Origin: an uncultured Croceitalea sp.
GTDB taxonomy: Bacteria; Bacteroidota; Bacteroidia; Flavobacteriales; Flavobacteriaceae
Assembly: GCA_937969515.1 (NCBI GenBank)
Contig: CALBVX010000045.1
Span: 1-35,479 of the forward strand
DNA length: 35,479 bases
Direction of reading: 5' to 3'
Part shown: piece by piece, positions 29,798 to 33,470 of the stretch
How positions within the stretch are numbered: the first letter of the stretch is position 1
Layout: the number at the start of each line of letters is the position of its first letter
The notes under the pieces: generated by a model
Databases searched by the model: none
Seen by the model: only the letters and a program-made list of their open reading frames with translations
Told to the model about the DNA's origin: nothing
Program-made: the position numbers and the translations under genes

Positions 29798-30919
29798 ATG
29801 TATGCAATGAGAATTCCTTTTGTTTTAATACTCCTATTTCTAATCGGAAGCTGCAAGTCAGAGCCCAAGAAAACGGAAGCTGCTCCGGAAAAAGAAAATA
29901 CAAACTCTTTAATGGCCGGAAGCGATACGCTCATCTATCCTGAGGAAAAATATTTTAAATCTATTCGTCAAATTACGTTCGGAGGTGATAATGCGGAAGC
30001 CTATTGGAGTTGGGACGATAAACAAATTATCTTTCAATCGAACAATGAAGATTGGGGAATGGAATGCGACCAGATGTTTTTGATGAATATCGACGAGAAT
30101 TTCAAGGATAAAAAGCCACCTATGATCAGTACCGGGTTTGGGCGTACCACCTGCGCCTATTTTCTGCCCGATAACAAACATTATGTCTACGGCTCTACGC
30201 ATTTAGTTGACAAGGAGTGTCCAGAGGTTCCTCTTCGTAAAAACGGGAATTACGTTTGGCCTGTTTATGATTCGTTCGACATATTTGTAGCCGATTTAGA
30301 AGGAAATATCACCGCGCAACTTACAGACGAAGTGGGCTATGACGCAGAGGCTACGGTGTCTCCAAAGGGTGATAAAATTGTTTTTACTTCAGATAGAAGT
30401 GGCGACTTAGAACTATACACTATGAATTTAGATGGTTCAGATGTAAAACAAATTACAGATGAATTGGGGTATGATGGCGGCGCTTTTTTCTCCCCCGATG
30501 GCACTAAATTGATATTTAGGGCTTCTCGACCAAAAACCCCTGAAGAAATCAAAAAATACAAAGACTTATTAGCGGATGGCCTTGTAGAGCCCACTGAAAT
30601 GGAACTATTTATTTGCAATGCCGATGGGTCAGATTTAAAGCAATTGACCTTTTTGGGCAACGCGAATTGGAGTCCGTTTTTTCATCCTTCAGGAGAGAAA
30701 ATTTTATTCTCTAGTAATTTTGAAGCCGAAAAGGGATTCCCGTTTAATCTGTACTTTATTGATATTGACGGGAAGAACCTTGAACGTGTCACCCATGGGG
30801 AAACCTTTGATGCTTTCCCTGTTTTCTCTAATGATGGCAAATACTTGGCCTTTTCAAGTAACCGCAATAATGGCGGTACCCGCGATACGAATTTGTTCAT
30901 TGCCGAATGGCAGGAATAG
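29798..30919 (+). CDS. PD40 beta-propeller lipoprotein (TolB-like)
   Basis: A 373-residue protein with a lipobox (LIGSC). The ATG at 29798 is used; the ATG at 29807 is an equally good signal-peptide start. The mature part is a beta propeller of WD40-like PD40 repeats: YWSWDDKQIIFQS, SPKGDKIVFTSDRSGD, GSDVKQITDELGYD, SPDGTKLIFRASRP, PSGEKILFSSNF and SNDGKYLAFSSNRNNGG. Such propellers are protein-interaction scaffolds in the periplasm or on the cell surface. It overlaps the Lgt-like gene by 13 bases and so starts the tight operon that runs to 33470. Confidence 0.9.
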   Translation: MYAMRIPFVLILLFLIGSCKSEPKKTEAAPEKENTNSLMAGSDTLIYPEEKYFKSIRQITFGGDNAEAYWSWDDKQIIFQSNNEDWGMECDQMFLMNIDENFKDKKPPMISTGFGRTTCAYFLPDNKHYVYGSTHLVDKECPEVPLRKNGNYVWPVYDSFDIFVADLEGNITAQLTDEVGYDAEATVSPKGDKIVFTSDRSGDLELYTMNLDGSDVKQITDELGYDGGAFFSPDGTKLIFRASRPKTPEEIKKYKDLLADGLVEPTEMELFICNADGSDLKQLTFLGNANWSPFFHPSGEKILFSSNFEAEKGFPFNLYFIDIDGKNLERVTHGETFDAFPVFSNDGKYLAFSSNRNNGGTRDTNLFIAEWQE

Positions 30920-31677
30920 ACCTCCCATTTGAACCTATACTATTCGGTGTTAAATTGAACATGCACCTAATATTGGAGTATCTGGCATTCTTCGTAGCCT
31001 TTCGGTATTATGTAATCCTTAGAAAGAACAGTGCTGATTCCATTTCATCGAACAATAGATTGTCAATCATTATCGGTGCTATTTTCGGTGCACTTTTCTT
31101 TTCTAGATTTGTTGCCTTTTTAGAAAATCCGGCCTTACATCTTGAACAGGGTTGGTTAGCCATTCTTAACAACAAAACCATCATGGGTGGACTTTTCGGT
31201 GGTTTGTTGGGAGTCGAACTTGCCAAAAAAATTATAGGGGAAAAACAATCTTCAGGTGATTTGTTTACCCTTCCCATTATTTTGGGTATTATCATAGGTC
31301 GCGTGGGTTGTTTTTTGGCTGGGGTAAAAGAATTCACTTATGGCACTGTCACTTCTTCCTTTATGGGTATGAATTTAGGAGATGACTTGTACAGGCATCC
31401 GATTGCACTTTATGAAATCGTATTTTTGCTTTTGCTTTTTATTTGGATTCGAAAATTTCAAAAGCGAGCCGATTCCTTTAAAAGTGGCACTTCTTTCAAG
31501 ATTTTTATGCTCTTTTATTTCGGATTCCGGTTTTGTATCGAATTTTTCAAACCGAATACCTTTTTCTTTCTTGGCCTGAGCAGCATTCAACTATTATGCT
31601 TAATTTGTTGGTTATACTACTATAAAACCATCATTCAAGCAATTAAATATGCCGGAAAGAAATTACACCTACTATGA
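30907..31677 (+). CDS. Lgt-like (prolipoprotein diacylglyceryl transferase family) membrane protein, atypical active site
   Basis: A 256-residue protein with about seven membrane segments. It keeps the Lgt architecture: a GGLFGG loop after the second or third helix, GRVGCFLAG, RHPIALYE and FRFCIEFF. Compared with E. coli Lgt, R132 (Arg143) and the R208-xxx-E212 pair (Arg239/Glu243) are retained. The histidine of the HGG motif is M93 and the Asn146 position is C135. True Lgt transfers diacylglyceryl from phosphatidylglycerol to lipobox cysteines; this paralogue probably acts on a different acceptor or only binds lipid. It overlaps its neighbours by 13 and 29 bases, the second being a radical SAM gene. 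Confidence 0.78.
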   Translation: MAGIDLPFEPILFGVKLNMHLILEYLAFFVAFRYYVILRKNSADSISSNNRLSIIIGAIFGALFFSRFVAFLENPALHLEQGWLAILNNKTIMGGLFGGLLGVELAKKIIGEKQSSGDLFTLPIILGIIIGRVGCFLAGVKEFTYGTVTSSFMGMNLGDDLYRHPIALYEIVFLLLLFIWIRKFQKRADSFKSGTSFKIFMLFYFGFRFCIEFFKPNTFFFLGLSSIQLLCLICWLYYYKTIIQAIKYAGKKLHLL

Positions 31678-33043
31678 TTTTACATTAAGCCTTTGCCCCG
31701 ATTGTCTTCGAAGGGTTGATGCCAAAATCATTTTCGAAAACGATAAGGTGTATATGTTGAAAAACTGCAAAGAGCACGGTAGGTCAAAGGTTCTGATTGC
31801 AGATGATATCGAATACTATAAAAACATTCGAAACTATAACAAAGTCTCTGAATACCCCAAAACCTTCAATACAAAGACCCATTATGGCTGCCCTTACGAT
31901 TGTGGGTTGTGCCCCGACCACGAGCAGCATTCATGTCTTACCGTGGTAGAGGTAACGGACCGTTGTAATTTAACATGCCCGACTTGTTATGCGGGCTCCT
32001 CGCCGACTTACGGCAGACATCGTACTTTAGGGGAAATCAAAAAGATGCTCGATGTCATCGTAAAAAATGAGGGTGAACCCGATGTTGTGCAGATTAGTGG
32101 GGGCGAGCCTACGATACATCCACAGTTTTTTGAAATCATGGACTATGCCAAATCCCTACCGATTCGGCATTTAATGGTCAATACCAACGGCATTAAAATC
32201 GCCAAAGATTTTGCCTTTGCGCAACGATTGGCGACCTACGCTCCTGATTTTGAAATTTACTTACAGTTCGATTCTTTAGATAATCAGGTTTTGCGAACTC
32301 TACGTGGCGCGGATCTTGCCGATACTCGCTTAAAAGCCATAGAAAACCTCAACAAACTAAACCTATCTACCACCTTGGTGGTTACCCTTCAAAAGGGTTT
32401 GAATGACCATGAGATGGGAGAAACCATAGATTTTGCTCTGAAGCAAAAGTGTATTCGTGGTGTGACTTTTCAGCCCACTCAAATTGCCGGTCGTTTGGAA
32501 AATTTTGAGGTTGATGAAAATCGAATTACGCTGACCGAAGTACGAAGAAAAATTTTAGAGCAATCCCCTATTTTCGAATCCGATGATTTAATTCCTGTGC
32601 CTTGTAACCCAGATGCCTTGGTCATGGCTTACGCACTGAAATTAGGTGATGAGGTGAGTCCGTTAACACGGTATATCAATCCAGATGATTTATTGAACGA
32701 AGGTAAGAACACCATAATCTATGAACAAGATGAGCAATTACATGGCAAAATGATTGAATTGTTCAGTACGGGAAATTCCGTTGAGAAAGCTTCGGAAAAT
32801 CTAAAAAGCATTATGTGCTGCCTACCTGAAATAGATGCTCCGGAATTGAGATACGATAATCTCTTTCGTATTATCATTATGCAATTTATCGATGCCCATA
32901 ACTTCGATGTTAGGGCCATTAAAAAGAGTTGCGTACATATTGTGAACAAAGACTATAAAATCATTCCTTTTGAGACGATGAATTTGTTTTATCGAGATGA
33001 TAAGATTGAACGGTTGAAAGAATTGCAAAATGAATCTCTATGA
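31649..33043 (+). CDS. Radical SAM protein of the MJ0619/Tes (tetraether synthase)-like family
   Basis: A 464-residue protein. The N terminus has a CPDC pair (C16, C19) and C40 with KEHG. A second cysteine group follows, GCPYDCGLC (C81, C85, C88) with C96, and then the radical SAM motif C106-NLT-C110-PT-C113, with GGEPTIHP shortly after. This order matches COG1964 proteins, including archaeal MJ0619 and the tetraether lipid synthase Tes, which joins lipid chains. Further cysteines (PVPCNP, MCCLPE and KKSCVH) could bind an auxiliary cluster. The start overlaps the Lgt-like gene by 29 bases, indicating coupled translation. A lipid-modifying role is inferred from family plus partner; methylation or another radical reaction is also possible. 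Confidence 0.85.
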   Translation: MPERNYTYYDFTLSLCPDCLRRVDAKIIFENDKVYMLKNCKEHGRSKVLIADDIEYYKNIRNYNKVSEYPKTFNTKTHYGCPYDCGLCPDHEQHSCLTVVEVTDRCNLTCPTCYAGSSPTYGRHRTLGEIKKMLDVIVKNEGEPDVVQISGGEPTIHPQFFEIMDYAKSLPIRHLMVNTNGIKIAKDFAFAQRLATYAPDFEIYLQFDSLDNQVLRTLRGADLADTRLKAIENLNKLNLSTTLVVTLQKGLNDHEMGETIDFALKQKCIRGVTFQPTQIAGRLENFEVDENRITLTEVRRKILEQSPIFESDDLIPVPCNPDALVMAYALKLGDEVSPLTRYINPDDLLNEGKNTIIYEQDEQLHGKMIELFSTGNSVEKASENLKSIMCCLPEIDAPELRYDNLFRIIIMQFIDAHNFDVRAIKKSCVHIVNKDYKIIPFETMNLFYRDDKIERLKELQNESL

Positions 33044-33243
33044 GTATATTCTTTTTAGAGCTGTATTTTAATGATTTTTCGGCTATTGGCTTCTTTATGT
33101 TTGGGCCTACTATTTTATTTTTATTGATAAGTATTATACTGTTCATTGCAAAACAAAAAAAGCCAGGAAAGATATTCTTAATCATCTCTGGCTGCTGTTT
33201 GCTTATAGCAGCAGGATTGTGTGGAATAGGTGAACTAATTTAA
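33040..33243 (+). CDS. Small two-helix membrane protein, paralogue 1
   Basis: A 67-residue protein with two membrane helices joined by a basic loop (FIAKQKKPGKIF). The motif FGPTILFLLISIILF before the loop is nearly repeated in the next gene. The ATGA overlap with the radical SAM stop (33040-33043) shows it belongs to the same operon. Family unknown to me. Confidence 0.75.
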   Translation: MSIFFLELYFNDFSAIGFFMFGPTILFLLISIILFIAKQKKPGKIFLIISGCCLLIAAGLCGIGELI

Positions 33244-33254
33244 ACTGTATTATA

Positions 33255-33470
33255 ATGTTTTCGATTTTTTCTTTAGAGGTGGGCAATTTAGACGGTTTGG
33301 TCGTCCTCATTTTTTTGGTCATGTTCGGGCCCGCCCTTTTATTCCTCATTATAGGCCTTATTTTATTTGCAAAGCAGAAGAAAAAAGCAGGGAAAATATT
33401 TTTTATACTTACGGGAGTTTATCTTTTAATCAGCCTCGGCGTTTGTGGAGTTCTAATGAGCGGGTATTAA
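33255..33470 (+). CDS. Small two-helix membrane protein, paralogue 2
   Basis: A 71-residue protein that is clearly paralogous to the one upstream: FGPALLFLIIGLILF, then the basic loop AKQKKKAGKIFF, then a second helix ending GVCGVL. It starts 11 bases after the stop of paralogue 1 and ends 10 bases before the convergent receptor gene. They could be lipid-binding or scaffold subunits of the radical SAM/Lgt-like system; this is positional inference only. Confidence 0.75.
   Translation: MFSIFSLEVGNLDGLVVLIFLVMFGPALLFLIIGLILFAKQKKKAGKIFFILTGVYLLISLGVCGVLMSGY

Follow-up and report, generated by a model that had tools for sequence, protein, structure and literature searches.

The DNA stretch analysed here, a contig of 35,479 nucleotides (nt) from an uncultured Croceitalea sp. 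(CALBVX010000045.1, hereafter the window), belongs to a genome bin with a completeness of 54% and carries a cassette of three parts on its forward strand. The first part is an Lgt-like integral membrane protein of 256 residues (30907..31677), a probable glycerolipid transferase of the cassette assigned by its Pfam LGT match, an AlphaFold2 (AF2) model and a residue alignment. It is followed by a radical SAM enzyme of 464 residues (31649..33043) with the class D fold of tetraether synthase (Tes; MJ0619), in which the C-terminal set of cysteines is altered (C319, C390, C391 and C428). According to the coordinates of the open reading frames (ORFs), the two overlap by 29 nt on the forward strand (31649..31677), just as an earlier reading of the bare sequence, here called the original prediction, had stated.

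The third part had been missed in that prediction. In the window it consists of two small transmembrane proteins, also encoded on the forward strand, both of which are candidate substrates. Small transmembrane protein 1 (67 residues, 33040..33243) has a start that shares 4 nt with the stop of the radical SAM gene, and its conserved cysteine is Cys61 (codon 33220-33222). Small transmembrane protein 2 (71 residues, 33255..33470), a second copy, repeats this cysteine motif at Cys64 (codon 33444-33446) and clusters with the small proteins of relatives (cluster c2). The differing C-terminal cysteines of the radical SAM protein and a TolB-like ORF upstream of the pair were likewise absent from the original prediction.

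Distribution of the cassette

The Lgt-like gene, the radical SAM gene and the gene for the small cysteine protein almost certainly form a real, conserved unit. We surveyed 120 Flavobacteriaceae genomes and 395 Bacteroidota genomes. Within the family, a full-length radical SAM protein was found in 15 of the 120 genomes, and a strong Lgt-like match (58-100% identity) occurred in exactly those 15. The pair lies on one strand in all of them, with about 1.3 kb between the genes in G044, and the overlap measures 8-29 nt in 10 of the 14 same-family relatives. Weaker Lgt matches in other genomes of the family presumably represent ordinary lgt genes, a point checked in 14 carriers. A sixteenth genome, G072, holds a 90-residue remnant of the radical SAM protein at the syntenic place (L074, 7695-7967) and has no Lgt-like match, which points to joint loss of the pair.

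Across the phylum, the radical SAM profile (E <= 1e-30) matched 34 of the 395 genomes: 28 above 700 bits (tier a, the group of the window), 3 at 370-400 bits (tier b) and 3 at 160-186 bits (G185, G215 and G418). The Lgt-like profile (E <= 1e-35) matched 33 genomes, namely all 31 of tiers a and b together with G136 and G285. The original prediction would have fallen had the pair failed to co-occur across genomes; it co-occurs in 31 of the 31 genomes with this radical SAM group (Fisher p 4.7e-44, relatedness ignored). Chance overlap of ORFs as the source of the pair is ruled out by this co-occurrence. The three genomes with weaker radical SAM matches are without an Lgt-like match at the same threshold; those in G185 and G418 (loci L063 and L065) are Tes-like, and the G215 row forms the longest branch of the tree.

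The Lgt-like gene lies within 1.5 kb of the radical SAM gene in 26 of the 28 tier-a loci and nearby in all three tier-b loci, and the two non-adjacent tier-a genomes keep it elsewhere in the genome. Unlinked Lgt-like genes of this kind were seen in G153, G388, G510 and G512. Two genomes have the Lgt-like match alone. That in G285 is weak (129-131 bits), with no radical SAM gene nearby, while G136 carries a cassette-type gene (L191, 6653-7498) with no radical SAM gene in the 14 kb read and no match in the genome at the profile threshold; this gene is possibly a decaying orphan.

A wider scan of 84,980 species genomes returned at least 584 radical SAM relatives, the best 80 of which make up our named loci; the first row of the query was a tier-b protein, so this sample is tilted towards tier-b relatives. 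The 80 loci, many of them from metagenome bins, fall in Bacteroidota, Bacillota, Cyanobacteriota, Pseudomonadota, Chloroflexota, Planctomycetota, Myxococcota, Actinomycetota, Acidobacteriota, Elusimicrobiota, Armatimonadota and Spirochaetota, as well as two archaeal bins, and the genera include Pedobacter, Chitinophaga, Caulobacter and Paenibacillus. In 72 of the 80, the locus includes an Lgt-like ORF in the same orientation as the radical SAM gene, mostly adjacent to it and at a distance of 2-3 kb in L079, L083 and L153. Five of the other eight loci (L080, L113, L120, L122 and L143) end at a contig edge where the gene would be expected. Searching these eight genomes gave a strong Lgt-like match elsewhere for L080, L114, L120, L143 and L151, a partial match at a contig edge for L113, and weak matches only for L115 and L122.

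The archaeal members rest on metagenome bins, and the IcmF-like mutase gene and acyl-CoA ligase-like gene on the L149 contig do not establish an archaeal source. Deep branching in the radical SAM tree is not resolved and the branches are very long; we therefore make no claim of a single origin for the Lgt-linked groups. The cassette radical SAM genes of a Leptospiraceae bin (L151) and a Limnohabitans bin (L089) branch inside Bacteroidota, a placement that reflects either horizontal transfer or binning error. In Flavobacterium davisii (L082, 4280-4970), two ORFs stand in place of an intact Lgt-like gene beside the radical SAM gene, which may reflect a pseudogene or a sequencing error.

The radical SAM and Lgt-like enzymes

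The radical SAM protein matches the Pfam families Radical_SAM and Zn_ribbon_HMPTM, and hits the MJ0619 structure (PDB 7tol) with an E-value of 8.9e-70. Its AF2 model has a predicted local distance difference test score (pLDDT) of 86.0, with low values at residues 369-399. Compared with GDGT-MAS (7tom), the model reaches a Z-score of 45.2 with a root-mean-square deviation (rmsd) of 3.2 over 413 aligned residues, and the next family follows at Z 19.8. All cysteines listed in the original prediction (C16/C19/C40, C81/C85/C88/C96 and C106/C110/C113) were found at their positions. Among 60 proteins of the group, the rubredoxin motif C-X2-C-X20-C-X2-H is kept (C16, C19 and H43 each in 59, C40 in 60), as are the N-terminal cluster motif C-X3-C-X2-C with its histidine (C81, C85, C88 and H91) and the radical SAM motif C-X3-C-X2-C (C106, C110 and C113), both in 60 of 60. 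The cassette enzyme thus shares with Tes/GDGT-MAS (MJ0619; 7tol, 7tom) the whole four-domain fold, the rubredoxin, the N-terminal cluster and the radical SAM ligands (PMC9433317).

The description of the enzyme as tetraether-synthase-like holds for the fold and, by the profile cut-off, not for membership of the family. The protein scores 292.2 bits against the NCBIfam Tes model NF045702, below its cut-off of 450, and the C-terminal CC..Y and PFC of Tes are replaced by SC..I and PFE. The best full-length NCBIfam match, covering residues 12-449, is the radical SAM (seleno)protein TrsS (NF045646), again under the cut-off (330.8 bits against 490); the cassette enzyme is set apart from TrsS by its profile score. 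Furthermore, it differs from Tes in being encoded together with an Lgt-like gene and a small cysteine protein. The Tes-like Bacteroidota proteins have no Lgt-like gene beside them: L063 (G185) scores 493.8 bits, above the Tes cut-off, and L065 (G418) scores 441.9, just below. The pterin-methylase label of MJ0619, seen as HMPTM in the Pfam name, was considered and rejected; the authors of PMC9433317 were unable to corroborate it for MJ0619.

The C-terminal region differs from that of Tes. In Tes-type proteins (7tol, L063 and L065), a CC pair precedes Y or YY, and a PFC motif is present; the cysteine ligands of Tes in this region are taken from the alignment. In the cassette group, the second cysteine of this CC (C428) alone is kept in 59 of 60 rows, and PFC has become PFE or PFD in 54. 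Additional cysteines appear, with C319, like C428, invariant in all 60 and the pair C390/C391 present in 55; two tier-b proteins that were inspected have cysteines slightly upstream instead of this pair. Two further Tes residues, Met439 and Tyr459, are conserved in 1000 archaeal homologues. The Met439 equivalent is found in 44 of the 60 and is also absent from the bacterial Tes-like L063 and L065, and the Tyr459 equivalent is never tyrosine (I, F, V or H). The alignment suggests that a putative Fe-S site at the C-terminus has exchanged its ligands; the pair C390/C391 falls within the low-confidence stretch of the model. In Tes, a lipid carbon is held on sulfur at the C-terminal cluster, and the active site of GDGT-MAS contains lipid tails (PMC9433317); with this site changed, the chemistry of the cassette enzyme may differ.

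The Lgt architecture named in the original prediction was confirmed. The protein belongs to the LGT superfamily (Pfam LGT 73.7 bits, cut-off 24.9) and falls short of the equivalog TIGR00544 (39.7 bits against 118.9). E. coli Lgt is the sole clear match to its AF2 model (pLDDT 94.1; Foldseek E 2.1e-5), with Z 13.8, rmsd 5.1 and 239 aligned residues against 5azb, where VIA-align rows below Lgt (Z < 8) were taken as background. The residues required in E. coli Lgt are Y26, H103, R143, N146, G154 and R239 (PMC13251419), of which R143, G154 and R239 are the ones kept throughout the cassette proteins. More specifically, the equivalents of R143, G154, Y235 and R239 are kept in 51 of 51 rows, with R132, G146 and R208 of the window protein standing for the three required ones. 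Whereas fold and these four residues are shared with E. coli Lgt (5azb/5azc), the cassette protein has lost H103, has cysteine for N146 and mostly histidine for Y26 (M93, C135 and H20 in the window). This pattern suggests that the donor side is kept and the other required residues are changed.

Such replacements have precedents. Natural replacements of H103 and N146 occur in other Lgt proteins; the Lgt of Leptospira interrogans has N146C and restores E. coli viability only poorly; and MSMEG_5408, a second mycobacterial Lgt homologue, combines Y26H with N146C, the two commonest changes of the cassette, a likeness drawn from its description (PMC13251419). Also unlike E. coli Lgt, the cassette copy is accompanied by a canonical lgt in 14 of the 14 carrier genomes tested, the canonical gene scoring above the TIGR00544 cut-off and the cassette copy below it in all 14, which rules out that it serves as the only lgt of the cell in these relatives. 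In the window's own genome (54% complete), only the cassette copy was found, and the cassette copy is also the only Lgt match in a Thalassarchaeaceae bin.

The small cysteine protein and its proposed modification

A small hydrophobic ORF of 55-161 residues lies directly downstream of the radical SAM gene in tier a, or of the Lgt-like gene in tier b. It was picked in 69 of the 80 loci by a finder without a cysteine requirement, which is slightly biased in that it scored cysteine among the hydrophobic letters. Two picks were dropped: L079 was the wrong ORF by inspection, and L080 was truncated at the edge of its contig. Manual addition of eight proteins (a pair each from the window and from Mycobacterium branderi, and four from genome-search loci) to the 67 that were left gave a set of 75. 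Every one of the 75 contains cysteine, and the last cysteine stands 4-16 residues from the C-terminus in 70, compared with 17 of 61 control small ORFs from elsewhere in the loci, a rough yardstick as the control set holds many non-genes. Glycine or serine occupies position -2 to the cysteine in 63 of the 75, and a small residue stands at -1 or -2 in 74. Of 51 representatives that share less than 50% identity, 50 keep the cysteine when those from Alphaproteobacteria are counted by their helix-1 cysteine.

Lysine and arginine are denser on the inner side of the cysteine-bearing helix in 63 of 71 proteins, equal in 8 and reversed in none. Four alphaproteobacterial proteins were left out of this count; their cysteine is in helix 1, and inspection placed it once more at the end predicted to be outside. 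From these sequence features, the conserved cysteine is predicted to sit where a helix ends on the outer side of the membrane. The small gene overlaps the radical SAM gene by 4 nt in 17 of the 80 loci. A script counted at least two tandem copies in 16 of the 80 loci, of which about 13 are convincing by eye, and in 7 of 14 Flavobacteriaceae loci, of which 6 are convincing; the window has two. Since this script required cysteine, its hits in 65 of the 80 loci and in 14 of the 14 loci of the family speak for presence and for tandem copies but not for conservation. No Pfam family scored over its cut-off in the two small proteins of the window or in ten further ones searched, one of which, from an archaeal bin, gave a near-threshold EF-hand match; the window's two had no NCBIfam match. 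Where the stretches read show no Lgt neighbour, as in five relatives (L063, L065 and L157-L159), they show no such small cysteine protein either.

The reading that we favour, tentatively and with somewhat less than even confidence, is that the small protein is the substrate of the two enzymes, the Lgt-like enzyme lipidating its cysteine and the radical SAM enzyme altering the lipid tail or the peptide. The small protein would insert in the membrane with the cysteine at the outer helix end. The active site of Lgt faces the outer side of the membrane, which fits the outward cysteine. There, the Lgt-like enzyme would take a diacylglyceryl or similar glycerolipid group from a phospholipid and attach it to the cysteine, using an altered active site independent of His103. 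The radical SAM enzyme would make a 5'-deoxyadenosyl radical and functionalise an unactivated carbon, the acyl chains of the glycerolipid being the likeliest target. This reaction could precede or follow the transfer, and may amount to tail coupling, cyclisation or sulfur insertion via the re-wired C-terminal Fe-S site. The outcome would be a small membrane protein that is lipid-modified and not cleaved. The original prediction had proposed that the pair makes or attaches a modified lipid. The pairing proved real, specific and widespread, the lipid chemistry is putative, and the small cysteine protein suggests that a protein, and not a free membrane lipid, is what becomes modified.

Several observations weigh against this proposal. 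The equivalent of H103 is found in none of the 51 Lgt-like rows (V, M, A, L, I or T instead), that of N146 in one (cysteine in 50) and that of Y26 in five (histidine in 45, a gap in one), and these losses make transfer to a thiol uncertain. The radical SAM C-terminus of the window, SCVHI and PFE, differs from that of Tes, and the re-wiring is incomplete in some members: in L081, the radical SAM protein carries the Tes-type cysteines as well as the cassette set, and the Lgt-like protein has asparagine at the N146 place. Lipoboxes follow the pattern [LVI][ASTVIG][GAS]C, which surrounds the cysteine in only 1 of the 75 small proteins. No small membrane ORF was found by the finder in 11 of the 80 loci, of which only L115, L117 and L151 run off the contig within 300 nt. 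In the two cases of unlinked genes that were inspected (L114 and G388), the small gene stays with the radical SAM gene and not with the Lgt-like gene. The radical SAM enzyme is presumably cytosolic and the cysteine is predicted outside; this arrangement fits a lipid tail reached mid-membrane better than the cysteine itself, and is the least sure step. All three steps (the small protein as substrate, the glycerolipid on its cysteine and the radical SAM reaction on tail or peptide) are inferred.

A pathway for lipids only, close to the original prediction, is a rather unlikely explanation. Here the radical SAM enzyme would join or alter phospholipid tails and the Lgt-like enzyme would handle the diacylglycerol part, with the small protein as an accessory that recruits or presents lipids. 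The Tes fold spanning the whole radical SAM protein, the retained donor-binding arginines and the loss of those Lgt residues thought to lie on the acceptor side are all consistent with it, and bacterial Tes homologues have been proposed for the synthesis of branched glycerol dialkyl glycerol tetraethers (PMC8941075). However, it leaves unexplained why small proteins that otherwise diverge have a near-invariant cysteine (50 of 51) and why their genes occur in tandem copies. The Tes-type C-terminal residues are missing from the cassette enzyme, and the five radical SAM relatives that lack an Lgt neighbour in the stretches read also lack the small cysteine protein.

The tandem small genes beside the radical SAM gene would also suit a system resembling those for ribosomally synthesised and post-translationally modified peptides (RiPPs), in which the radical SAM enzyme modifies the small protein near its cysteine by a thioether, a methylation or a C-C crosslink and the Lgt-like protein is a membrane partner without transferase activity. 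The lost Lgt residues agree with this, as do the linkage of the small gene to the radical SAM gene in L114 and G388 and the presence of RiPP maturases among the next-best folds (SuiB Z 19.7, SkfB Z 18.4). We consider it unlikely: those folds cover only part of the radical SAM protein and Z drops from 45 to 20 after Tes, the four Lgt residues kept in every row would not be expected in a dead enzyme, and the predicted position of the cysteine, outside the membrane, is distant from a cytosolic enzyme. A role of the cysteine as a redox or metal ligand that passes electrons to the radical SAM enzyme or anchors it, both enzymes acting on unspecified lipids, is very improbable, for although the several predicted Fe-S sites need electrons (PMC9433317) and the small gene adjoins the radical SAM gene, with the 4-nt overlaps noted above, the predicted topology puts the cysteine outside, the small protein usually has one or two cysteines and no metal-binding set, and the Lgt-like partner is left unexplained.

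Lipidation of the small protein, our preferred reading, can be extended to a dedicated system in many phyla, and perhaps some archaea, in which an Lgt-derived transferase lipidates the helix-end cysteine, after which the lipid tails are joined or reshaped by a radical SAM enzyme derived from Tes. We regard this broader form as doubtful; if true, it would define a class of lipoproteins with radical-modified, possibly membrane-spanning anchors, made by no known pathway. The membrane-spanning lipid synthase Mss, which is reported to couple two fatty acids in bacteria, is by its description a functional analogue only (PMC11868695). The cassette parts are variants of known families, and as a three-part system they are without a known counterpart; no description of the pair or the cassette was found in the titles and abstract openings of open-licence papers. 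The role of the many bacterial tetraether synthase homologues is left open in PMC9433317 and PMC8941075. For one large branch of them, the cassette now supplies a partner enzyme, together with a candidate substrate in which one residue can be probed. A Tes-like gene in a bacterial genome should not be read as a sign of membrane-spanning lipids, a caution that bears on lipid-based climate proxies; the same care applies to annotating the cassette Lgt relative as a prolipoprotein transferase.

Neighbouring genes and related loci

Upstream of the pair, the window encodes a TolB/PD40-like lipoprotein with the lipobox LIGSC (29798..30919, forward strand), whose ORF overlaps the start of the Lgt-like gene by 13 nt. 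It may share a transcript with the pair as a local operon member. A TolB-like ORF in this place was noticed again, by eye, only in L009; a conserved third gene upstream of the pair was sought among the loci and none was found, the upstream neighbours being variable. A role in anti-phage defence was considered and rejected, as PADLOC matched viperin models alone, over part of the radical SAM protein.

More distant arrangements occur on plasmids. A Mycobacterium branderi plasmid (L160) combines a radical SAM protein of 25% identity with an Lgt-family gene and two small proteins, both with a near-C-terminal cysteine, and a Mycobacterium avium plasmid (L161) has the same gene order by annotation. 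Related radical SAM genes on Mycolicibacterium and haloarchaeal plasmids (L157, L158 and L159) have a methyltransferase-domain gene directly downstream and lie near redoxin or disulfide genes, forming another uncharacterised branch.

The tier-b cassettes L060, L061 and L062, and likewise the loci L076, L077 and L079, contain further membrane genes, including one for a DUF4395-type protein, identified by a Pfam match in L062 and by clustering of related ORFs in the others. L062 also encodes an isoprenylcysteine carboxyl methyltransferase-like protein (PF04140), and the extra genes sit between the radical SAM and Lgt-like genes. These additional genes give another hint at a modified membrane cysteine.

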